Virus record (IMG/VR): IMGVR_UViG_3300042731_007028
Span: 1-28,829 of that record
DNA from: a virus
DNA: 28,829 nt
Strand: one strand, 5' to 3'
Part shown: piece after piece, positions 12,292 to 28,035 of the stretch
Numbering within the stretch: the stretch's first letter is position 1
How the letters are laid out: each line of letters opens with the position of its first letter
Notes under the pieces: generated by a model
Database searches by the model: none
What the model was told of the DNA's origin: nothing
What the model saw: the letters and a program-made list of their open reading frames with translations, nothing else
Position numbers and translations under genes: made by a program

Positions 12292-13248
12292 TTAAGCCGT
12301 TGCTGTGTTGAAAAAGTAGCCTGCCGACGTCAGCACCGCTTTGTGGTCGTAGGCAAACTCGCCCTCAATCCGGTCCGCTTCCAAATGTTCCATGCGGAAG
12401 TTCTTCGTCCGCACCCCGCCGTTCGCCCCGCTGAATGCCCGCCAGGCGAACGTGTAACCCGCCGACGGCACAAGCAGCCCGGGCGCAGGCGCCACGTAGG
12501 CCAACAGCGCATGTTTGCCGGCGATAAAAGCATTGGTTTCCGCGGCTGCACCTTCCTGGCTGGTCGTGTACGACGCACCTGCCACTAGATATCGATCCAC
12601 TTCGAAGAACCGCGCCAACAACGTCGCAGTGATGGAGTCACTGCTCGTGTGTTTAAACCGGTCCGTCACGATGGGGTGGCGCTTTAACGCCTGATGAACG
12701 GGATAGCCCACGATCAACGTGTTGGCGTTCAAGCCGGTCTTCTGCTTAATGCCCGCCTTGCCCGCGTCGACGTCCGTCTCCGGATCGCTCGCCGCATCGT
12801 CCCATTGCGTAAAATCCGTGCCGCCGGTCACATTCGAATCCCAGATACCAGTCGTGAAATAAGATGACGTCCAGTTCACCTCTTTCTGGATCATCAACTG
12901 TTCCATCACGAACGTAGCCGCGCTGCGGTCCATATCAATCGCGGGATCTGAGTTGCTGCGAATCTGATCCGGCACGTCTTTGTGCTCCGCATACACCTCG
13001 CACGTGTACGTGGCCGTGTCGATATCAAAACCGCCGCCTGCCGATTCCGTGCCCGGTGCACGGGGTTTGGCGTTGTTACGTCGAAAGTCGGCCGAGTCGA
13101 ATACGAAATATTCATCGGATCGAAATTCCACCGGCACGGCGGGAAACGCTGTCATTGAAACAAAATCCGTCGCCTGCTGCATGTAAGCCACGCTGATATT
13201 CGTCAGTGCACGGGAGACGTGCACGTCACCTCTGGTCGGTTGAGTCAT
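12292..13248 (-). CDS. Major capsid protein
   Basis: This 318-residue protein begins MTQPTRGDVHVSRALTNISV and carries blocks typical of uncultured-phage major capsid proteins with the HK97 fold: FVSMTAFPAVPVEFRSDEYF, TYTCEVYAEHKDVPDQIRSN, ANTLIVGYPVHQALKRHPIV, HALLAYVAPAPGLLVPSAGY, TFAWRAFSG, and the C-terminal DHKAVLTSAGYFF. The Cys/His pattern and length are normal for this group. Ribosome site AGGAGG sits 8-13 bases before the ATG, behind a T-rich leader, as expected for the most abundant protein. It follows scaffold and decoration genes in the usual order. No delta-domain is obvious; the scaffold is encoded separately upstream. The shell is therefore probably assembled on the separate scaffold. 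Confidence 0.88.
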   Translation of the reverse strand: MTQPTRGDVHVSRALTNISVAYMQQATDFVSMTAFPAVPVEFRSDEYFVFDSADFRRNNAKPRAPGTESAGGGFDIDTATYTCEVYAEHKDVPDQIRSNSDPAIDMDRSAATFVMEQLMIQKEVNWTSSYFTTGIWDSNVTGGTDFTQWDDAASDPETDVDAGKAGIKQKTGLNANTLIVGYPVHQALKRHPIVTDRFKHTSSDSITATLLARFFEVDRYLVAGASYTTSQEGAAAETNAFIAGKHALLAYVAPAPGLLVPSAGYTFAWRAFSGANGGVRTKNFRMEHLEADRIEGEFAYDHKAVLTSAGYFFNTATA

Positions 13249-13758: not shown

Positions 13759-14862
13759 TTAATGCGTGGCGCGTTCAGTGCGTTCTTGCCGAGCCAGGTC
13801 GGGGTGCTCGTCCAACGCCTTGACGAACGCTTGTTCAGACGAGATGCCATCGCGTTTGGCAATCTGCTTCGCGGCTTTCTCCAATTTCACCACGGCGGAT
13901 TCTTCCCCGCCCCCGTTGTCAATGTCGGTACCCACTTGCTTGAACAAGTTCTTCAACCCTTCGTCCGCCGCGCGCAGCACGCGCTCCAGTTCGAGGTAGT
14001 CCGCTTCATCCAAGGTGTCCGCCGCCTTCATCAATATCACGCCAAACTCGTCCGGCTTCATTGACAGGGTGTTAAACGCCGCCGCTTTGTTAATGTATTC
14101 CCGGCGCAGACGTGTCTCACGTTCCTTGACCAACAAAGTGCGCTCGCTCTCCAACGACTTCTTCAACTCAGCCGCCTCTTCCGCCGCCACCTTGTTTGCC
14201 TTCCAAAGTTGTTCCAAACCGGGACGCACGCTGTCCGGCACGGTGTCGTCAAACTCCAAACCACTGCCGTCCTTCTTCACGGTATAACCGAGGTCCTCGT
14301 CTTTCTTGCCCGCCTTCTTCATCTCGTCCGGAGGCGCATATCCGTAGCCTGCCTTAGACATTAACTTCTTCATGACTTCCTCAGGCATGCGGTCCTTCAC
14401 GCCGTTTAACGCTTTCAACGCCGTACGACAGGCCTTCTTCAACGTTTCGTCCATTTTGGCCTTGTCCATCTCGTCTTCCATTTCTTTTTCTTTCTGCTTC
14501 ATGGTCTCCTTCTCTTCCTCATCCATCTTACCAGCCTTCAGCACCGACACCGACCCGGCCAGTTCCGGCTCAGCGATCAACGCCTGTACCGCGCCGGCCA
14601 CGTCGGTGTCCTTATACGCCGTCTTGCAGATCGTGCTGTACGCCGTGTCCGATACAATCCGGCTCACGATATCGCCCAGACCGTCTTTGTTCGACGCCAC
14701 CGCCTTTAACAGCTCCGCCTGCTTGTCGTCTTGTATATTCAAAATTAATTCGTCCATCTCGCTACCTCCGCTTTTTGCTTTAAGCACCAAAAACTTCCGC
14801 CGGTTCGCGGCGGCATCCACCAAACTAACTTCTAATGCATCAATATCCGTGAGTTCATTCAT
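13759..14862 (-). CDS. Scaffold-like prohead protein
   Basis: The product is about 367 residues, starting at ATG 14862 (MNELTDIDALEVSLVDAAAN); an in-frame TTG at 14871 that overlaps the protease stop is a coupled alternative. The opening VSLVDAAANRRKFLVLKA resembles a sequence often found next to XkdF-type proteases. The middle is highly charged and helical (DEEEKETMKQKEKEMEDEMD, residues about 115-140) with a coiled-coil appearance. A second helical block runs EAAELKKSLESERTLLVKER. The C-terminal VKLEKAAKQIAKRDGISSEQ, then AFVKALDEHPDLAR, is a common scaffold-end motif. It probably guides capsid assembly and is cleaved by the protease at the end of the upstream gene. Position between protease and decoration/capsid genes fits. 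Confidence 0.82.
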   Translation of the reverse strand: MNELTDIDALEVSLVDAAANRRKFLVLKAKSGGSEMDELILNIQDDKQAELLKAVASNKDGLGDIVSRIVSDTAYSTICKTAYKDTDVAGAVQALIAEPELAGSVSVLKAGKMDEEEKETMKQKEKEMEDEMDKAKMDETLKKACRTALKALNGVKDRMPEEVMKKLMSKAGYGYAPPDEMKKAGKKDEDLGYTVKKDGSGLEFDDTVPDSVRPGLEQLWKANKVAAEEAAELKKSLESERTLLVKERETRLRREYINKAAAFNTLSMKPDEFGVILMKAADTLDEADYLELERVLRAADEGLKNLFKQVGTDIDNGGGEESAVVKLEKAAKQIAKRDGISSEQAFVKALDEHPDLARQERTERATH

Positions 14863-14867
14863 TTGTT

Positions 14868-17800
14868 TCAACCCGTTGTCTTACGCATGCCCGTGCCCCC
14901 GATGCTGAATCCGGTGTATTTCCCCGCCTTGACCGCCGCCCATACATCCGCATCCCGAACCTTCACTGACATTATCCAGCTGCCCGCGCGCACGTGGCCC
15001 GTTCCGATCTGCATCGCTTTAGGGGCAATGTAGCTCTCAATCACCTCGATGGGCCCTTTCTTCTTGTGCTGCAACCCCACCACCCGCGAGCGCACCAGAA
15101 ACTTGTGCGCCGCCGCCTCGATCTCCGGCGCCGAGATGTAATCCCCGTGCAAGTCCTCCACGTCGGGCTCCATCACCACGCCGGTAATAATCTGCTGGTC
15201 TTTATCTTGTTTGGCAATTTTAACCACGTAATCTTTTTGCACCCGGTCCGTGGTGCTGACTCGCTGAGGCTTTACACCAGGCCCCGCCCAGATCAATGCT
15301 TTGTGGCCCCGGGCCTTTAATCGCTTGACCGTGTCCTCCCGCGTGTTCGTTTCGATAAACGGTTTCTGATCCTCCGGCTTCGTCACCATCCACGCCCGCC
15401 CTTCCTTGCCGATAGGCACTGACTGAATCAAATAACGCCCCTTGAGTTTATTCCCGTGCAAAAACACCTCGACGAAGTGGCGGTGACGCACGCCCATCTC
15501 GTACGTCCCGTGATCGAGCGCGAAGAACTTCGCCCACGTCTGCGATGTTGCCCCCACGCCGCCCGGCTCACTGACGAATGGTTTATCCACACCCACAGTC
15601 AACCAGTCTTTCGGCTGGGCCAGTTTGAACGTGCCGCGCAACGGTTTATCTGTGCCACTTAACGCCAGCAGTCGGTCGCCACCAGTACGCTTGTTGTCCG
15701 CCGCCGTGCCAATGAACACCGAAAACCCCCACAGCGCGTCGTCCGCCTCAAACCGCAAGTCCCCGTGCACGCTGTGATCCGTTTCCAACAGCTGCTTATC
15801 GCTCGACGCTTTTTCATCGTCCGACAAGCCACGCCAATGGTGCTGGAAGACAAAGTCGCCCTCCCCACTTTTAGGGTACAGCGAATCCCAATTGTCTTTC
15901 CAAAACCGCTCAGCCGACGCCGCGCGTGTGTCGCCTTCTTCGTCTTTCTGTTTCGCCACGTGCTGCAACACGCCGCCCCGTCGGGCAACATCCACCGCCT
16001 GCGAAGTGGTGTAGGGTGTTTGACGGGAAGCGTCCACATCAAGCACATTTGCCCCCAACCACGTTAATGTGTCGGCCGCCTTATCCGGCACCAACTCCAG
16101 CACATGCACAGTAAGGATGTCACCATTATCCGCCTTAACCTCTGTGTTGAACGACCAACCTAAATCAATATAACCATCCATCGTGTTTGACCACACGTCC
16201 CCCTTCGAAGGCGCGAGTCCGCCCCGGTAGTTCCACCCCGTCTTTACTTTCTTTCTATCCAGCACGACCACCTTCAGTTCAACCACTTTCTTCAACTTGC
16301 TCCAGTCCGACGTCCCGCCCGTGGGGTAGGGCGAATCTGCTGCTTTAGCCACCACACCCTCCGACCGGTCAAACTTAAATCCCCAACGCACCGCGTCTTC
16401 CAGCTGCGCTTTCGTATTGACCATGCGATCGGGCGACACACGCAATAACTTCTTATCGGATAACGTCAATCGATCCAGCGCGCGCTTACGAGCCTCAACC
16501 GGTTCATCCCCCAATGGTTCGTCATAATACGGCAGATCAAAGACAGTCAGCACGGGATATTCATCCGCTTCGAATTCAATCTTGTCGCGGTTAAAGCGCA
16601 TTAACTCAGGCCGGGGCAGGCGCTTGCCGTCACGCTCAATGCCCAGGTCGGCGTCCAGCACCCAATCGCCCGTCAGTTTGCGCAACGCCGCGCCCAACGT
16701 CGGCAACTTGGGCAGCAAATCCACATCCGCTTTCCCTTCCGACCACAGCCGCAGCCGGTCGCCTTGCCGCTCCGCCACGACCCGGAAGCCGTTCCACTTA
16801 GGGCCAACCATGACGGGCAGACGGCCCGTTGCCCAGTCCCACAGGGCGTCTACGCTGAATAACTCCGTCACGCCAGCCAGTAGTGGCTTGGGTGGGGTAA
16901 ATGGCGTAAACGGGCGCACACGCGCTTTCGAGACTAAGTAAGTATTACTTAGTAATGGCTTACGTAATTTACCCCGGACGTAAACTCGGGGGGGCGTGCC
17001 GACCTCTTCCAGCCGATCCACCTCGAACCGAGGCCGATCCTCGATCAACGCCGGATCCGTCCAGAACGCGAACGACGACAGGTTGTAAAACGTCTTGTGT
17101 TCAGGATGTGCGAACGCACCGTCCCCCGCCGTGCTGGGCACCTCGAACACGAAGACCCCTCCCGGCTTTAACACCCGATGCACCTCCCGCAGAATTTTGT
17201 CCATATCTTCCAGGTGTTCCAGGGAATGATTCGCCCGCACCACCGCTACGCTGTCATCCGAGGCAGGGATGCCCAGAGCGAGATCATGCACGCGGTCCAC
17301 ACCCGCCGCCGCCGGATCGCGATCAATGCCGGTATATCCCGGCAACACCTCGTCGCCACAACCTAAGTTGAGTTTAAGCGGCGTCTCGTCCTCGTCACCC
17401 GGATCAAGCGGCTCAATGTATTCGTTACCCAGTCGAAGCATGAACGAGGGGGGTCGCAGGGCGTCGACTGTGCCATAAAACTCAGTGCATAACGTGACGT
17501 GCGGCTCATAAGTTTCGTAATCCCAGCTCGCGCCCAACGACCGCGCTTGCTCATATTGCTGCTTCAGCACGTCGCTCTCCAAAGTGAGTACCAGCGTATT
17601 GCCGAACAGCTTGAGCCTTTCCGGTTTAACTATGACGGACTGAGCGCGCGGCTTGTACCCTTTAAACGGTCGGCGGCTGTATACCGTGGTAGCGTGCATG
17701 TCAGCCGGCGCAACCCGGTGCACACGATCTACACTCTTACAAGTCTTTAGGACAGTCTTGTTCAACCAATCATAGAGCCGATCAGCGCTGGTGGGGTGCA

Positions 17801-19070
17801 CCTTAAATGCAGCGTATACGCCACCACTCGACGCCGCCTTCTCAATATCCTGCAGTACGTCGTCCACCCAACGTTGAGCAGGCTCCCCACCCCACAACAG
17901 GTAAGCAATAGTCCCCGCCGTCGGCCCGCCGTCCGTATCTTTCTTGTCGGGCGCGTAATTGCGCTTGTGGCGAGACAGGAATGCGTTGACACGGTTAATT
18001 TCATTCACACTTAACGATTCACCCGCCGCCAATTGTTTCGCCCGCCGCACCCCCGATCCGATTCCCTGTGCTGCTGCCTCACTCGGACTGAGTCCCCCCC
18101 GGTCCCATTTCTCACGCAATGCCAAGCCGCGCTTAGCGGCCGCACGCACCGCCTTAGGGGGAGTGAAACGTCGCGACCGTGCCTTGACTAGTTGCACCTC
18201 AGCATCCTTACGCCGCCTCAGCACTAGGTCGTAAACCGGCATGTAATCCGCGTGGGGTCCTTGCGGATTGTCAATGAAGTGCAACGTCTCTTCTTTGTCC
18301 GGATCCAACGCCTTGCGCGCTTGCAACCAGATATTTTCCGCCTGAATTAAAAAATTATCTTCAGCATCTCGGCGCGCGCGGAACAACACGTCCATATCGT
18401 TAGGGGGTTTCGTCGCGTCAGCCTGAACGCTGGAGCCCACTACACATACGAAATCCTTTACCACCACCAAATCGCCGTCGTCTGTCGTCGGTTCTTCCTG
18501 CTTGCCCAGCTGTTGCGCCGCTCGTGCAAGGGGCGTCTCCGTATCCACCACAACGCCTTTGTCTTGTAACGCCCGCAGCACCCAGGCCGCCGCGTTAACA
18601 AAATTCTCCACCGCACGCCCTTCGCGCTTCGCACTGGCATACCACTGACTCAAGCGCAGCCAGGCCAATTGCAGTTCGTCTTTTGGCGTCTTCGCCAACT
18701 TAGCCGGCACCATCTCTTCCAGGCTGACCTTAAATAACGGCGTCTCGTCATCCTCGTCGTCAGGTCGGGGCCGGGCAATTGCCAACGGCCCGCCCACGTG
18801 CACATCGCCTACCGTGGGTTGCGCCTTCGTCGTCAGTTCTTCCCCCAGTTCGTCCGCCGCAATAGGTGGGGCTAGATCAATTAAATGCTGAACCGTGCTC
18901 TTGTTGATGTCCATCACCTGGCGCAATCCGCTGTCCAGATGCGCCGCGCACACATCCAACCGCCGCGCGCCGCCCGCCCACAGTAGCACCTTAGTCGCCG
19001 AGCCACCACAGAAGAAGCACTGTGGGTCGGTCCCCATCAGTTGCGCTTGGTGGATATGGTCCTCAGTCAT
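14868..19070 (-). CDS. Giant multidomain protein with C-terminal XkdF prohead protease
   Basis: A single 1400-residue frame. Domains read by eye: 1-50, Cys/His finger (CxxC at 18-21, CxxH at 41-44); 200-295, nucleotidyltransferase-like (GSS at 212, DMD at 225, D281); 300-411, a phage domain with QGIGSGVRRA and GTIAYLLWGGEPAQRW; 416-548, Acb1-like 2H phosphoesterase (HAT 459-461, HVT 524-526); 564-715, SAM methyltransferase (LNLGCG, NHSLEHL); 735-1035, ATP-dependent DNA ligase (KWNG 758-761, EGVVAK 904-909, WSKLKK 923-928); 1070-1233, LigD-like 3'-phosphoesterase (HxDxR 1102-1106); 1278-1396, XkdF protease (DLHGDYIS, GLQHKKKG, GSWIMSVKV, YTGFSIGG). It overlaps the Cys/His gene (ATGA) and lies just before the scaffold. 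I infer that the enzyme domains are packaged with the protease and released by cleavage. Activities are untested. Confidence 0.88.
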   Translation of the reverse strand: MTEDHIHQAQLMGTDPQCFFCGGSATKVLLWAGGARRLDVCAAHLDSGLRQVMDINKSTVQHLIDLAPPIAADELGEELTTKAQPTVGDVHVGGPLAIARPRPDDEDDETPLFKVSLEEMVPAKLAKTPKDELQLAWLRLSQWYASAKREGRAVENFVNAAAWVLRALQDKGVVVDTETPLARAAQQLGKQEEPTTDDGDLVVVKDFVCVVGSSVQADATKPPNDMDVLFRARRDAEDNFLIQAENIWLQARKALDPDKEETLHFIDNPQGPHADYMPVYDLVLRRRKDAEVQLVKARSRRFTPPKAVRAAAKRGLALREKWDRGGLSPSEAAAQGIGSGVRRAKQLAAGESLSVNEINRVNAFLSRHKRNYAPDKKDTDGGPTAGTIAYLLWGGEPAQRWVDDVLQDIEKAASSGGVYAAFKVHPTSADRLYDWLNKTVLKTCKSVDRVHRVAPADMHATTVYSRRPFKGYKPRAQSVIVKPERLKLFGNTLVLTLESDVLKQQYEQARSLGASWDYETYEPHVTLCTEFYGTVDALRPPSFMLRLGNEYIEPLDPGDEDETPLKLNLGCGDEVLPGYTGIDRDPAAAGVDRVHDLALGIPASDDSVAVVRANHSLEHLEDMDKILREVHRVLKPGGVFVFEVPSTAGDGAFAHPEHKTFYNLSSFAFWTDPALIEDRPRFEVDRLEEVGTPPRVYVRGKLRKPLLSNTYLVSKARVRPFTPFTPPKPLLAGVTELFSVDALWDWATGRLPVMVGPKWNGFRVVAERQGDRLRLWSEGKADVDLLPKLPTLGAALRKLTGDWVLDADLGIERDGKRLPRPELMRFNRDKIEFEADEYPVLTVFDLPYYDEPLGDEPVEARKRALDRLTLSDKKLLRVSPDRMVNTKAQLEDAVRWGFKFDRSEGVVAKAADSPYPTGGTSDWSKLKKVVELKVVVLDRKKVKTGWNYRGGLAPSKGDVWSNTMDGYIDLGWSFNTEVKADNGDILTVHVLELVPDKAADTLTWLGANVLDVDASRQTPYTTSQAVDVARRGGVLQHVAKQKDEEGDTRAASAERFWKDNWDSLYPKSGEGDFVFQHHWRGLSDDEKASSDKQLLETDHSVHGDLRFEADDALWGFSVFIGTAADNKRTGGDRLLALSGTDKPLRGTFKLAQPKDWLTVGVDKPFVSEPGGVGATSQTWAKFFALDHGTYEMGVRHRHFVEVFLHGNKLKGRYLIQSVPIGKEGRAWMVTKPEDQKPFIETNTREDTVKRLKARGHKALIWAGPGVKPQRVSTTDRVQKDYVVKIAKQDKDQQIITGVVMEPDVEDLHGDYISAPEIEAAAHKFLVRSRVVGLQHKKKGPIEVIESYIAPKAMQIGTGHVRAGSWIMSVKVRDADVWAAVKAGKYTGFSIGGTGMRKTTG
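16933..16953. repeat. Short perfect inverted repeat inside the giant gene
   Basis: ACTAAGTAA, GTA, TTACTTAGT: two perfect 9-base arms around 3 bases. It is AT-rich within a GC-rich coding sequence, at the linker between the methyltransferase and ligase domains (codons for LLSNTYLV). It may be chance, a binding site or a weak RNA hairpin. Confidence 0.4.
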
Positions 19071-19273
19071 AACGCATTCTCATTCAGTTTGTGATCACCG
19101 CACCAGTCATCAAAATACACTACCGGGAAGCCTTGCATGCTCGGCGCATGCCGGCGGCAACGGCCAACCGATTTCACCGACTGCGCAGACACTTTGTCTA
19201 CGTAGAATCTACACGTTCGGCACCGCATGCCTTCGCCGCGGCCCGCCCAGTTATCCGTCTTTTGATCCGTCAT
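19067..19273 (-). CDS. Small Cys/His (zinc-binding type) protein
   Basis: This 68-residue protein starts at ATG 19273 (MTDQKTDNWAGRGEGMRCRT). It holds C-x2-C (MRCRTCRFYV), then CRRH and WCGDH, four Cys and two suitable His, so a small zinc-bound fold is likely. Similar small CxxC...WCGxH proteins are common in proteobacterial phages, with no agreed role. The start lies inside the portal gene's last codons (23-base overlap) and its stop overlaps the start of the giant gene (ATGA), which supports it as a real coupled gene. The giant protein also opens with a CxxC...CxxH finger. I do not know its function. Confidence 0.75.
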   Translation of the reverse strand: MTDQKTDNWAGRGEGMRCRTCRFYVDKVSAQSVKSVGRCRRHAPSMQGFPVVYFDDWCGDHKLNENAL

Positions 19274-20654
19274 CGCCGTCTTCTTCTGCCGGTTTAAACT
19301 GAGGATCCTCGTCTTCATCCGGTGGATCCGATCGCGGCGCGCGGCCACTTGCCATCTCATCTTCATCCTTCTTCTTCGGCAAAGAGGCAAAGCCCCGCAA
19401 CACGTTTTCCAACTCATCATCAGGGAACAATTCCACACCCGCTCCGGCCAGCTTGGCTAGATACTCACCCAACTCTTTAAGGTCCGGCGTTTCCACATCG
19501 CCATGCACGAAGACCGGCAGATCCATCAGATCGTACCCGTTAAGTTGAAACAAGCGCGGCACCGCGTATTGATTGAACACCGCCGCGATCTCATCCATGA
19601 ACGCGCCCAATGCAACCCCGAACAAATCCGTCTTGTTGGAACTGAGCGCAAAGCTGCCGACCTTTTCATGGCCCAGTAAAATAAAATCCGCTAACATCGT
19701 CATGGCAATGCGTTGCTCGTAACGTCCAACTATTTCGTTCGTGCTAAACTGGCGACTACCTCCGGTACTCAACAACTTCAGTTCATATAATAGATTGCCT
19801 TTGTCATCACGCCCGCCCGGCATGACGATGCCCTCTTGCTCGTCACGGCGTATATTGCGCACGATGTTTTTCAACTCCGTGTACACCTGCGCATCTTCGG
19901 CGCTAGCGCCTGACACCATAATTTTAGTCGGCGCATATATTACCGGCAAGCCCGCTAAGTCGCGCTCAATGCCGATGCCTTCAATTTCCTCGATACGCTT
20001 CTTAAAGAACCACGGGCGAAATGCGTTGCGCAATACACTCCGTCCGTCCGGATTATTCTTGTGGGACGACGTGCGAAACAACAGCGCTTTCTCGATCGGT
20101 ATCGTGTAAATCTGCCCGTTGATCGGGTCACGCTGCACGAAACCTTGCACGCCACCGTCATCGTCAATCAGCCAGTGGTCCAAAGTATCTTGCGCACGAA
20201 TCGGAATCTTACGCCAACCAATTTTACCATCTGTATATTTGCTGCGGCGCGCAGGGTCTTTGTTGCGAGAACCTAACCTACGCTTATACACCAACTCACT
20301 GTAACAAAATCCGTAAGGCAAAAAAGACAGTATTTCGCTGACTAAGTTATCCCAGGACTGCGACATGTCCTCCTTCACACTCTCCAGAAACTCAGCCGCC
20401 GCCAGATCATCCGGTTTGTCACTCTGTGATTCGACCCGCCAATCCACCTGTCGAATTAGCATATCCACCGCGAACAATATGGCGCCGATGATGGGGTCGT
20501 TGTCACGCATTTCGCGCAGCGTCTTCCATCGACGCAAGTCCATCAGCTCGCGGACCCACTCCTCGTCGATGCGGCCCTGCCAGTGTTTAAGACCGGTCGT
20601 GCCGACCTCACTGGTCAGTTTAATAGGCTTATCGTTTTGATCTTTTATCGCCAT
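19251..20654 (-). CDS. Portal protein (DUF935, Mu gp29-like)
   Basis: This 467-residue protein begins MAIKDQNDKPIKLTSEVG and shows the portal order: REMRDNDPIIGAILFAVDML followed by IRQVDWRVE, SFLPYGFCYSELVYK, RRLGSRNKD, DTLDHWLIDDDGGVQGFVQR, KALLFRTSSHKNNPDGRS and VLRNAFRPWFFKKRIEEIEG, then AMTMLADFILLGHEKVGSFA. It forms the dodecameric DNA-entry vertex to which terminase and the adaptor bind. The C-terminal 40 residues are acidic and Pro-rich, probably disordered (SDPPDEDEDPQFKPAEEDGD). Length is close to the Mu gp29 type. It follows the gpF-like gene rather than preceding it, unlike Mu and most of its relatives. The ATG at 20654 has only a weak ribosome site. Confidence 0.9.
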   Translation of the reverse strand: MAIKDQNDKPIKLTSEVGTTGLKHWQGRIDEEWVRELMDLRRWKTLREMRDNDPIIGAILFAVDMLIRQVDWRVESQSDKPDDLAAAEFLESVKEDMSQSWDNLVSEILSFLPYGFCYSELVYKRRLGSRNKDPARRSKYTDGKIGWRKIPIRAQDTLDHWLIDDDGGVQGFVQRDPINGQIYTIPIEKALLFRTSSHKNNPDGRSVLRNAFRPWFFKKRIEEIEGIGIERDLAGLPVIYAPTKIMVSGASAEDAQVYTELKNIVRNIRRDEQEGIVMPGGRDDKGNLLYELKLLSTGGSRQFSTNEIVGRYEQRIAMTMLADFILLGHEKVGSFALSSNKTDLFGVALGAFMDEIAAVFNQYAVPRLFQLNGYDLMDLPVFVHGDVETPDLKELGEYLAKLAGAGVELFPDDELENVLRGFASLPKKKDEDEMASGRAPRSDPPDEDEDPQFKPAEEDGDDGSKDG

Positions 20655-24402: not shown

Positions 24403-24657
24403 CCCATTTGCACGACGGATTTTTATGTCCTATACTCCGCTTACGGCGGACGGGGTGCCTGCACCCGGCATCGTTCACAAAAAATTACTCGTTCTCGATC
24501 GGACGGGGAACTCCTTTTAGTAAATCGAACGCATGTTCGGGCGCCGGTACGCTTACTCCAAACAGCTCGCGCGGGTCGCTCCCCCGGCTGGTAACCATCA
24601 GAATATTGATGCCCGTTTCGCTCCTCACTGTTACACTGTTCAACGATTGAAGACTAA

Positions 24658-24676
24658 AAGGAGTTTACTGACTGTG
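24658..24676 (+). promoter_or_regulatory. Ribosome site and GTG start of the primase-helicase gene
   Basis: AAGGAG (24658-24663) is followed after 10 bases by GTG (24674-24676), in frame with the helicase. The open frame continues upstream to an ATG at 24533, but that part reads unlike protein, has no ribosome site and would include the AAGGAG as coding. I therefore choose the GTG. Confidence 0.65.
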
Positions 24677-26755
24677 ACAGCATCCGTCCGCGCCTCCCGT
24701 GGGTTAATGTATGATAAACTCTCCGCGAGTGGGCTAACAAAAGAAGACCAATCCGCTTTACACATCCAATTCTTATCCCGTCAACAGAGCAAGAAAGTAA
24801 TCAACGACGACGTCATAGCGATGAAGATTCCGTATTATGACCTATACGGGAAACCCATCAAAAATTATTGGAGGGTCCGGAGGCTCGAAGAGAAGGTGAA
24901 AGTCTCTTTCAACCGGAAGCCGGCCCCCCGTTACACCCAACCTCCCGGCATGTCCCCCCGTTTTTATTTACCGACGATCCCCCTGGAAGTTGAGACGGGT
25001 CCCACCAGCTGGGAGAAGATCGCGGCCAACCCGGAGATCGCGCTGATCATCACGGAGGGAGAGTTGAAGGCGGCGTGCGCATGCAAACACGGCTTCCCCA
25101 CGGTCAGTATCGGCGGGGTTTACGCCTTCCGTTCGCGCAAGCATAAGAAACCGTTGATCGACGATTTTTATTTGTTTGAGTGGGAGGGCCGCCCGGTCAC
25201 ATTATTGTTCGACTCAGACCTGTCGACGAACCAACACGTACAACAGGCGCTTTACTCCCTGGCGAAGGAACTCAGTAACTTGGGCGCCGAGGTCTTTATC
25301 GGATTTCTGCCCGACGTTGTGGAGGAGGGAAAGACCGGGTTGGATGATTACCTCCTCTCCCAGGGGCCGGAGGAACTCGCGGAGACGGTGCTCGCCGAGG
25401 CGGAGGCGTTTACAGAGAATAAAACGCTTTGGGAGCTCAATCGAGAAGTCGCTTACGTTGACGAGCTCGAGACTATCGTGCGATTGGGGAGCGGACAGTT
25501 GATCAAACCGGGTAATTTCGCGGCGCACGCTTACAGCCACTGGAGGTATAAGATTTACACGGAGGACAAACTGATTGAGAAGAGCGCACCGGCCCAGTGG
25601 TTAAAATGGCCCGCGCGCCACACCTTGGACAATCTGACATACGTACCGGCGCAACCTCGCATCATCGACAATCGCTTGTATAACTTGTGGCAGGGTTGGG
25701 GTTGTGAGGCGAAGAAGGGGAGCCTGGCCCCCTGGCGGAAACTCATGCGCGCGTTTTTTGGCTCGCACGACCGGGAGCGTCAGTGGTTCGAGCGTTGGCT
25801 GGCCCACCAGGTGCAGCACCCCGGCGTCAAGCTGGCCACGGCGGTCCTCATGTGGGGCGTGGCCCAAGGGACGGGGAAGAGTTTCGTCGGTTACGTCATG
25901 CGGGACATTCTCGGCCGGCCTAATTTCAGTGAGATCAGCAATCACGAATTAATGCAAGACGCGAACTTTAATTTCTGGCAAGCTCGCAAGCAACTCATTC
26001 TGGTGGACGAGGTGAGAGACGTGTCGGGCCACTACAAGCAGGTGAACGAGAGACTCAAGCAACTAATTACGCAAGAAGAGATCATCGTCAATCTCAAGTA
26101 TCAACCCAATTACGTTCTGACCGACGTCGCGAATTATTATCTGACTAGTAACAGTCCGAACGCGCTGCCGTTAGACGACAACGATCGCCGGTACTTCATC
26201 TGGGAAGTCCAAGAGAGTCTGGGAGAAGACTGGTTCATCAACACGTTCGACCCGTGGGCGAAGGGCGAGGGGCCTAGTGCGTTGCGTTACTATCTACAAG
26301 AACTGCCGCTGGGCAGGTTCACCGCCAAGACGAAGGCGCCAATGACCGAAGCCAAGGCGGAGATGATCTATACCAGTAAAACGGATTTGAGCATTTGGGT
26401 CCACGAGCTGGCGAAGGATCCGATCACGAAATTAAAACATGTGGAAGCAGACCTGCTGACGAACACTCAGCTGTTCGCGTTGTTCACCGACGGGGAACCC
26501 ACCCGGACCTCCCAGACGGCCATGGGGAGGGAGTTAAAGAAAGCGGGTCTGATTAAACGTTATATCAAAGTCGGGGAGAAGACCGAGGGGCTGTACGTCG
26601 TCAGAAACAGGGCCTATTGGGTGACGCGCACGGCGACGCAATGGGCGAACCATTATCTCAAATATTTCCCCGACGTGGATGGCGGCACGCCTCCGGAACG
26701 GGGCGCTCGTAAGCTCGGAGCAGCCAAGACCAAGACGAAGCGGAAATACACGTGA
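24674..26755 (+). CDS. Replication primase-helicase: TOPRIM-like (DUF3854) plus superfamily 3 helicase
   Basis: The product is 693 residues from GTG 24674. The N-terminal third has a TOPRIM-like site: ALIITEGELKAACACKHGFP with the catalytic-type Glu (about residue 128) and VTLLFDSDLSTN with DxD (about 180), as in DUF3854 domains. The helicase part shows Walker A GVAQGTGKSFVG (about 396-402), Walker B LILVDEVRD (about 440-446) and the SF3 motif C region YYLTSNSPNALPLDDNDRRY (about 487-505), as in D5/DUF5906 helicases. A C-terminal winged-helix-like part (FALFTDGEPTRTSQTAMGRE) is followed by a basic tail. It should unwind DNA at the origin. No separate archaeo-eukaryotic primase domain is visible. 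It lies directly beside the iteron region, which supports an initiation role. Confidence 0.88.
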   Translation: MTASVRASRGLMYDKLSASGLTKEDQSALHIQFLSRQQSKKVINDDVIAMKIPYYDLYGKPIKNYWRVRRLEEKVKVSFNRKPAPRYTQPPGMSPRFYLPTIPLEVETGPTSWEKIAANPEIALIITEGELKAACACKHGFPTVSIGGVYAFRSRKHKKPLIDDFYLFEWEGRPVTLLFDSDLSTNQHVQQALYSLAKELSNLGAEVFIGFLPDVVEEGKTGLDDYLLSQGPEELAETVLAEAEAFTENKTLWELNREVAYVDELETIVRLGSGQLIKPGNFAAHAYSHWRYKIYTEDKLIEKSAPAQWLKWPARHTLDNLTYVPAQPRIIDNRLYNLWQGWGCEAKKGSLAPWRKLMRAFFGSHDRERQWFERWLAHQVQHPGVKLATAVLMWGVAQGTGKSFVGYVMRDILGRPNFSEISNHELMQDANFNFWQARKQLILVDEVRDVSGHYKQVNERLKQLITQEEIIVNLKYQPNYVLTDVANYYLTSNSPNALPLDDNDRRYFIWEVQESLGEDWFINTFDPWAKGEGPSALRYYLQELPLGRFTAKTKAPMTEAKAEMIYTSKTDLSIWVHELAKDPITKLKHVEADLLTNTQLFALFTDGEPTRTSQTAMGRELKKAGLIKRYIKVGEKTEGLYVVRNRAYWVTRTATQWANHYLKYFPDVDGGTPPERGARKLGAAKTKTKRKYT

Positions 26756-26868
26756 GAGGCCGGGTGGCGGAGGCGGGGGGAGTCCTCCGGGGAGGGGAAA
26801 TTTCTTTAGTCTGATTCTTTTAAATTATTATTAAAAACAATAACTTAATATTTTTTTTATAATTTATA

Positions 26869-26897
26869 TTTACTTATTAAATATAAATTACTATACT
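26869..26897 (+). promoter_or_regulatory. Sigma70-like promoter for the DUF932 gene
   Basis: TTTACT (26869-26874), 17 bases, TATACT (26892-26897), within an AT-rich stretch that begins near 26815 and could act as an UP element. The predicted transcript start is near 26904, about 50 bases before the ATG. The surrounding 197-base gap (26756-26952) holds no gene. A short GC-rich CCTCCGGGGAGG lies at its left end. Confidence 0.55.
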
Positions 26898-26952
26898 TAT
26901 TGCGTTGTAACATCATCAACATCAACACGACACACGACAGGAGCACACGACT

Positions 26953-28035
26953 ATGAAGACACAACATACTCTCTCGCAACTCGCCGAAGAACTGGACCGC
27001 CGCGCGCAGGCTAAACAGGATTTCATTGTCCCCACTCAGGCGCTTGACCTAGTGCGGGTCGGTGACCCCGCCGCCGACGCAACCCGTTGGGGGTTGGCGA
27101 TCCCGGACCAAGGTGTCTACGACATCACCCCCCACACACATAATCAAATTGCCAACCGGTTGAAGATTCCGACCCGCTACTATCAGCGCTTGCTCGAGGA
27201 AGCCCCGGACCTGTTGCAGGATAACGTCAGACACTGGTTCGCCGCGAACACGGAGCCGCGTATGATTCGCACGTTGGACCAACAGGCGCGGGCGTATCTA
27301 TCGAACAAATACAAGCGTGTCGACAACGAGGATGTGGCGCAGGCCGTCTTACCGGTCATCTCGGCCAACCAAGACGCCGTGGTGTTGAGCAGCGCCGTCA
27401 CGGATCAGAAGATGTACCTGAAGGTGTTGTTCCCCAAAATGGAAGCGGAGATCAAACCGGGTGACACGGTCCGCATGGGCGTATCAATCGCCAACGGCGA
27501 GATCGGCAACGGCAGCACCAGTCTCCAGGCTTTTTTCTACCGTGACTTTTGCACCAACGGGTGCGTGTTCGGCAAACACGACGCCTTTTACCTGCGCCGC
27601 CCGCACTTGGGTGGGCGCTTGATCGAGGGCGTGGACTATCAGATCCTCAGCGACCGCACACAACAGATGCAACTTCAGACGCTGCAGGCCGAGCTGGCCG
27701 ACATGTTGACGGCGGCGACGGATCCGGCATTGTTCGAGCAGCTGACGGATAAATTGCGCGAAGCGACCGAGGGCGAAACGATTCGCCGCGCCGAGCCGGC
27801 GGTCGAGGTGCTGGCGAAGACCTTGGGACTCACCGACGACGAACGCGGACAGGTGCTGATTAACTTGATCGAGGATCGGGATTACAGCCGCTGGGGCGCG
27901 CTGAACGCGGTGACGAAGGTGGCCAACGAGCACCCGTCGTATGACCGCGCGACGGAGCTGGAAGGGTTCGGCGGCAAGCTGCTGGATTTGAACTTGCGTG
28001 AGTGGAAGCGAATCGCCTACGCCGACGCGGCTTAA
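26953..28035 (+). CDS. DUF932 family protein
   Basis: This 360-residue protein begins MKTQHTLSQLAEELDRRAQA. The core matches DUF932, found in many phages and plasmids: HTHNQIANRLKIPTRYYQRL, TLDQQARAYLSNKYKRVDNE, VRMGVSIANGEIGNGSTSLQ, FYRDFCTNGCVFGK, and a C-terminal helical part ending SRWGALNAVTKVANEH. Its function is unknown; the setting (early, next to the helicase) is typical. A clear ribosome site, AGGAGC, lies 9 bases before the ATG, and it has its own sigma70-like promoter, so it is probably well expressed early. The neighbours downstream are small unknown genes that may be in the same transcript. Confidence 0.9.
   Translation: MKTQHTLSQLAEELDRRAQAKQDFIVPTQALDLVRVGDPAADATRWGLAIPDQGVYDITPHTHNQIANRLKIPTRYYQRLLEEAPDLLQDNVRHWFAANTEPRMIRTLDQQARAYLSNKYKRVDNEDVAQAVLPVISANQDAVVLSSAVTDQKMYLKVLFPKMEAEIKPGDTVRMGVSIANGEIGNGSTSLQAFFYRDFCTNGCVFGKHDAFYLRRPHLGGRLIEGVDYQILSDRTQQMQLQTLQAELADMLTAATDPALFEQLTDKLREATEGETIRRAEPAVEVLAKTLGLTDDERGQVLINLIEDRDYSRWGALNAVTKVANEHPSYDRATELEGFGGKLLDLNLREWKRIAYADAA

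Follow-up and report, generated by a model that had tools for sequence, protein, structure and literature searches.

The window analysed here spans all 28,829 bases of an IMG/VR virus record, possibly a genome fragment, and encodes a head-gene polyprotein in which enzyme domains of DNA-repair type are fused to a prohead protease. The open frame (P0001, 1400 aa; 14868..19070, minus strand) shows the following domain order, assigned with Pfam, PHROGs and family profiles: Zn-motif, nucleotidyltransferase (NTase), phrog_2859 region, Acb1, methyltransferase, DNA ligase, LigD-type 3'-phosphoesterase (PE) and XkdF protease. It carries at least two unrelated enzyme domains on one phage polypeptide; the catalytic residues are conserved, the set recurs in relatives, and the gene stands among head genes. 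We lean modestly towards the explanation that the polyprotein would be packaged in the head, released by cleavage and ejected along with the DNA to mend the genome, where packaging, cleavage, ejection, the enzymatic activities and their substrate are what we infer from these observations.

A sequence-only reading of this stretch had proposed a ligase and phosphoesterase pair in one virion-gene protein, at 15372-16859. The motifs it quoted are all present (KWNGF at residue 758, LDADL at 805, SEGVVAK at 903, WSKLKK at 923, FQHH at 1075 and HGDLRF at 1102), and homology is upheld by leave-out profiles, built without the window and without its close relatives and then searched against the window: ligase E 4.2e-51, XkdF 2.6e-27, PE 6.1e-19 (a profile of nine distant relatives) and NTase 4.4e-7. 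Its coordinates fall slightly short but are otherwise sound, ligase and PE together extending over about 15351-16868. The assignment to a virion gene is borne out by the C-terminus, an XkdF prohead protease domain that the reading had left unnamed. Two artefacts were considered and rejected. Chance motif matching is ruled out by the leave-out profiles together with 200 shuffled window proteins, none of which (0/200) matched these profiles at E<10. An artefactual fusion is ruled out because independent contigs repeat the same domain order.

The PE domain (residues 1070-1240; 15351..15863, minus strand) is recognised from family profiles, alignment and residue counts. The window by itself would not prove it, because the Pfam LigD_N match (residues 1100-1215, E 0.044) is under the cut-off; the family evidence does. 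A profile from 12 relatives matches two solved PE structures, 3p43 (4.4e-8) and 3p4h (6.9e-7), which are the only PDB sequences below E 0.001, and one relative (L015b; L-numbers label relatives of the window polyprotein from the scanned contigs) exceeds the LigD_N cut-off at 3.3e-13. The nine-relative leave-out profile also matches Comamonas LigD (0.0031) over its N-terminal region, in an alignable way; the gene for this LigD lies close to an annotated Ku gene. By sequence homology, these matches place the PE part in the LigD_N 3'-phosphoesterase superfamily.

In LigD PE, according to the available part of the source, His42, His48 and Asp50 are metal ligands, Arg52, His84 and Tyr88 surround the phosphate, and point mutants of His84 and Tyr88 are inactive (PMC8656161). 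H1078, H1102, D1104 and R1106 of the window occupy the places of His42, His48, Asp50 and Arg52, and Q1076 is also present. The earlier claim was staked on conservation of the HxDxR residues in relatives; these four residues are kept in 45/45 PE domains of the complete XkdF-bearing members. Because ligase or PE patterns served to recruit the members, the conservation of those motifs is biased; in a less biased check, 16/16 members found by ligase patterns alone keep the PE H/H/D/R. The single R-to-M change among 25 members checked is that of ANMV-1. The His84 place holds Q1152 in the window (Q 34, E 8, I 2 and H 1 among the 45 PE domains of the family), and the Tyr88 place holds W1156, with W in 45/45. 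A second, diverged PE-like domain (PE2), C-terminal to PE, recurs in L007, L008, L018, L057 and others, and PE-only proteins with several copies occur among L116-L135.

The ligase comprises a nucleotidyltransferase domain (residues 735-930, with K758 as lysine nucleophile; 16281..16868, minus strand) and an OB-fold domain (residues 931-1037; 15960..16280, minus strand). The former rests on Pfam DNA_ligase_A_M (PF01068; residues 754-927, E 8.6e-14, above cut-off) and on structural matches of a model, the latter on model strands, spanning structural matches and the sequence listing. Among the ligase domains of complete XkdF-bearing members, K758, E904-G905 and K925 are each kept in 43/43. Motif III is E in 24, D in 16, N in 2 and A in 1 (non-E in 19/43), and at K909 of motif IV 35 have K, 7 have R and 1 has V (changed in 8/43). 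DNA ligases usually have RxDK as motif VI; DxxRxxPY stands in its place in the window and in many members. The ligase profile gives 42 PDB matches, every one a DNA ligase, and ranks archaeal and eukaryal DNA ligases before LigD (3gde 1.3e-34 vs the LigD ligase 1vs0 8e-18). An AlphaFold model of residues 733-1262 (mean pLDDT 82, pTM 0.52) has a ligase part that matches human, archaeal, T4 and African swine fever virus (ASFV) DNA ligases with Z about 18-23 among the matches listed; the PE part of the model has strands, and the 50 structural matches listed, none of them a PE chain, span only model residues 1-304. In a viral structure library, the best match is A0A516LT18 (827 aa; E 3.4e-27, 645 columns). 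As a separate observation, the ligase domain of L053 (4516-11433) is seemingly split, at 1489-1748 and 2079-2147, with a weak, below-cut-off intein-splicing match at 2074-2103 and hence a possible intein.

The NTase block (residues 206-295, with G212 S213, D225, D227 and D281; 18186..18455, minus strand) is recognised by its leave-out profile. G212, D225 and D227 are kept in 43/43 members and D281 in 40/43. Its outside links are weak: Pfam NTP_transf_2 reaches 0.015 at best, ASFV Pol X in the PDB stands at E about 1, and the structure model is poor (mean pLDDT 67), with no credible structural match. The upstream nucleotidyltransferase named by the sequence-only reading is therefore present as a conserved GS...DxD...D block but only weakly tied to known NTase families, and residues 206-295 are a putative, weakly assigned Pol-beta-like NTase. 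A scan for relatives of the NTase-to-Acb1 stretch of the window (residues 201-558) gave none.

The replacement of His84 and Tyr88, the changes in ligase motifs III, IV and VI and the weak NTase assignment, all read from alignments, count against the explanation given above. They raise the question of whether ligase and PE are for the most part without activity, their role being to bind DNA or to act as scaffold within a protease precursor. Such a role would accommodate the His84 and Tyr88 changes, the drift of motifs III and VI and the second, degenerate PE copy in relatives, but it is highly improbable in view of the lysine nucleophile (43/43), the PE metal triad (45/45) and the NTase DxD (43/43), all maintained under strong divergence. 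Catalytic residues kept under such divergence make the enzymes look constrained; those of P0001 look constrained but form a divergent branch, with predicted activity.

Scans of viral and genome contigs gave 106 proteins; clustering at 90% identity left 84 groups, of which 68 are complete. XkdF is present in 46 of the 68, and these 46, window included, form the core set; ORFs truncated at contig ends, 90%-identical copies and nine proteins that were partial or split were omitted before this count. Within the core set, the NTase is found in 43, the ligase in 43, PE in 45 and all three in 41; the triad is incomplete in five (L063, L070, L090, L094 and L009). Recruitment was by ligase or PE patterns, so the unbaited counts are those of NTase, uracil-DNA glycosylase-type UDG and XkdF, of which XkdF defines the set. 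Further domains in the 46 are UDG (17), the window-type methyltransferase (17), a D12 methyltransferase (2), a metallo-beta-lactamase-fold domain (4) and Acb1 (1). The domain order is NTase-ligase-PE-XkdF in 18, NTase-ligase-UDG-PE-XkdF in 14 and NTase-PE-ligase-XkdF in 8; six other orders occur once each. The 22 complete proteins without XkdF include, among others, PE-only proteins and archaeal-type NTase-ligase-PE members (ANMV-1, L012, L018, L057, L111, L113 and L123).

Several variants stand beside these forms. L016 (6293-9268, on a Methanoperedens MAG contig) combines an NTase-like domain, ligase and PE with a DUF2213 end in the stead of XkdF. L056 (8983-12766) encodes the fusion in split form, with the ligase on one ORF and PE + XkdF on its neighbour. 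L052 (3148-11661) extends to 2838 aa and combines in one chain five C5-cytosine methylase matches with a TRM5-type methyltransferase, NTase, ligase, PE and XkdF. A metallo-beta-lactamase-fold domain is N-terminal in L012, L015, L044 and L053, sometimes with an ASCH-like domain.

Across 50,697 deposited phage records, four family-probe searches gave ANMV-1 as the sole multi-domain match among the matches listed, which in two of these searches were the best 15 of 157 and the best 15 of 37 records; on this showing, current annotation gives hardly any sign of the family. No description of a ligase-PE-prohead protease fusion was found in the PMC full-text literature, where subscription papers are mostly absent, nor in the available parts of PMC5512222, PMC7824862, PMC5862659 and PMC8656161.

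The partners of the ligase bear on its substrate. UDG (PF03167) is inserted between ligase and PE, for example in L038 (1.5e-22) and L040 (7.1e-19), and other members carry DNA methyltransferases of D12 and C5 type. The UDG insertion, the DNA methyltransferases and the DNA-ligase-only PDB matches together point to DNA as the substrate. The enzymes might alternatively form an RNA (tRNA) repair kit against anticodon nucleases, in which opening of cyclic ends would fall to the 2H domain, phosphate removal to PE, rebuilding of the end to the NTase and sealing to the ligase. 2H, NTase and ATP-grasp RNA ligases do cooperate in phage RNA repair (PMC7824862, available part), and PE also trims ribonucleotides (PMC8656161, available part). 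We nevertheless regard such a kit as improbable: the ligase profile matches DNA ligases only, the two Pfam models that both match L012 differ widely (DNA_ligase_A_M 99.5 bits vs RNA_ligase 24.6 bits), UDG is present in 17/46, and the 2H domain is Acb1-type and seen in the window and L112 only.

A true phage NHEJ/LigD system for joining double-strand ends, be it for circularisation or for break repair, would fit the LigD-like presence of ligase and PE on a single polypeptide in either of two orders, and an NTase-like domain where LigD has its polymerase. The sequence-only reading had described an end-joining module tied to head assembly. Its structural half stands, as a ligase/PE/NTase-like set occurs in a head protein in 41/46, but the end-joining half lacks its usual partners. 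No Ku was found in the window (0/1) or in 23 related records (0/23), many of them fragments, which is the result of the search for Ku that the reading had suggested. The PrimPol (POL) domain of LigD has no Pfam match in P0001 at E<=1 and none in scanned relatives at E<=0.5 or 0.1. The ligase, closer to archaeal and eukaryal DNA ligases, is not specially LigD-like, and the inserted UDG likewise speaks against membership in bacterial NHEJ. A double-strand end-joining system is accordingly a distinctly unlikely reading, and UDG in 17/46 suggests base-excision or gap repair no less than it suggests the joining of double-strand ends.

The C-terminal domain of P0001 is an XkdF-type prohead serine protease (residues 1272-1398; 14877..15257, minus strand; PF14550 E 5.2e-32). 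H1335 is kept in 45/46 and S1389 in 46/46; we take these two to be the catalytic residues. Acb1, an anti-CBASS 2H phosphodiesterase, spans residues 417-557 with HxT motifs at H459 and H524 (17400..17822, minus strand; PF23474 E 2.6e-22). It is found in two proteins of the family, the window and L112, where it lies at residues 23-156 of a 5'-cut ORF and keeps both HxT motifs. Its fusion inside a head-protease precursor suggests a particle-borne counter-defence. Next to it, at about residues 560-690, is a SAM-dependent methyltransferase (17001..17393, minus strand; Methyltransf_11 E 1.4e-9 at 594-642). The remaining parts are the phrog_2859 region (residues 300-437; 17760..18173, minus strand; PHROGs) and an N-terminal CxxC...C..H motif of putative zinc binding (residues 18-45; 18936..19019, minus strand), noted by eye in translations; a similar block is seen, also by eye, inside L007, L009 and L011. 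A relative of the phrog_2859 region (residues about 299-411) adjoins capsid genes in Vibrio and Synechococcus phages, at 47-48% identity.

The gene lies in a head operon. By Pfam and PHROGs, the minus-strand order is terminase, Mu-F-like protein, portal, polyprotein, scaffold-like protein and major capsid protein. The portal gene is upstream (19251..20654, minus strand; Portal_Mu 1.5e-30, phrog_113 4.3e-85). The start of the scaffold-like gene (13759..14871, minus strand; weak phrog_3017 match at 4-35, E 0.0095; homologous position in L001) overlaps the polyprotein stop, and the major capsid gene follows (12292..13248, minus strand; phrog_1005 5.8e-80). Divergent right-hand genes at 24533-28035 on the plus strand encode a primase-like protein (DUF3854/DUF5906) and a DUF932 protein, and at 23-25 kb, between both transcription directions, GC drops to 45%.

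The slot is common to relatives of both bacterial and archaeal type, which have a portal upstream and/or a capsid protein downstream, while the portal and capsid families themselves vary from relative to relative. A portal homologue precedes the family protein in L012, L014, L044, L019, L048 and L053, and capsid proteins lie downstream in L012, L014, L044, L048 and L057. Upstream, the gene examined encodes a minor head protein in L015, gives a tail-fibre-like match in L057 and has no known function in L007. The window's capsid family (phrog_1005) occurs in 5/23 related records. Local profiles detect it in 18/45 relatives, at 1.2-2 kb downstream, and detect the window's portal family upstream in 18/45; some relatives use other families and some have short flanks.

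This slot beside the portal, together with the DNA-repair domains, is also what would be expected if the enzymes acted in the producing cell or prohead, sealing nicks and clearing blocked ends before packaging, with the fusion merely tying them to late expression and the portal. T4, for its part, mends DNA prior to packaging. This is the main rival, and we consider it unlikely: a fused Acb1 and defence-type methyltransferases fit a newly infected cell better, and the precedent of polyvalent proteins is injection (PMC5512222, available part).

In the packaging-and-ejection explanation that we prefer, the gene product would be a polyvalent head precursor. The C-terminal XkdF protease would bring the chain into the prohead and, at maturation, cut it, freeing the N-terminal enzymes within the head. 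Once free, these enzymes would enter the next cell together with the ejected DNA; there the NTase-like domain, ligase and PE could mend gaps, blocked 3' ends and nicks of the incoming genome, and Acb1 and the methyltransferase could protect the genome and blunt host defence. Short-patch base-excision repair calls on a glycosylase, on cleaning of 3' ends, on an NTase of Pol-beta-like type and on a ligase. In UDG-bearing relatives the set may amount to such a pathway, with no AP-lyase identified in it; without UDG, as in the window, it could repair blocked ends as well as nicks and gaps of one nucleotide. The polyprotein need not survive in the mature head, which counts against this explanation.

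A broader statement is offered more tentatively, as a possibility that we would not yet assert: bacterial and archaeal tailed viruses may share a virion-delivered NTase/ligase/PE kit, often with UDG, that is released in the head by the capsid protease and forms a counterpart of LigD and base-excision repair without Ku or PrimPol, with an anti-CBASS enzyme in some chains. If true, some tailed viruses would repair DNA with particle-borne enzymes before any viral gene expression, a point of relevance to the survival of virions exposed to long damage outside the cell. DNA-repair and anti-defence (Acb1) enzymes would moreover have a delivery route that depends on release by the protease, and a compact NTase-ligase-PE(-UDG) protein would be open to direct purification and testing.

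Among known systems, bacterial LigD, the NHEJ ligase of POL-PE-LIG architecture, shares with the family an ATP-dependent ligase and PE in one chain with flexible order. The window and its family differ in having no Ku found, no PrimPol and a Pol-beta-like NTase block instead, in the fusion of UDG and protease, and in the replacement of His84 and Tyr88. ASFV repair uses a small Pol-beta-type polymerase (Pol X) and a ligase. This viral pairing is similar, and the ASFV ligase and Pol X are among the window's PDB matches, the Pol X matches not being significant; in ASFV, however, the two are separate proteins of an unrelated virus.

Two further comparisons concern the fusion itself. The 'ATP-dependent DNA ligase' of ANMV-1 virus (AJP62006.1) likewise joins NTase-ligase-PE-PE2 in one protein directly after the portal gene, but it has no recognised XkdF protease and belongs to a virus of uncultured archaea. 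Methyltransferase-XkdF fusions, in Lactococcus ul36-group phages and Rhizobium phage RHph_Y1_11, place an enzyme before the XkdF prohead protease, or are so annotated; they carry one enzyme only, with no repair set seen.

The closest likeness is to the polyvalent proteins. XkdF presumably counts as an assemblin-like peptidase, and that of P0001 is C-terminal, at 1272-1398 of 1400. In the available part of their description, polyvalent proteins are proposed to be injected with DNA, and assemblin-like peptidases are always C-terminal in them (Iyer et al. 2017, PMC5512222). They share with P0001 the giant multi-enzyme chain in a portal-terminase phage, the C-terminal assemblin-like peptidase and the 2H, NTase and methylase domains. 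The passages of that source that mention 'ligase' concern RNA ligases, with which 2H domains were never seen (PMC5512222). In the window, by contrast, the core is a repair set of DNA ligase and PE (with UDG in relatives), and an Acb1-type 2H domain shares the chain with a DNA ligase. The best reading is that P0001 fits the polyvalent phage proteins and that a DNA-repair set as core is what is new.
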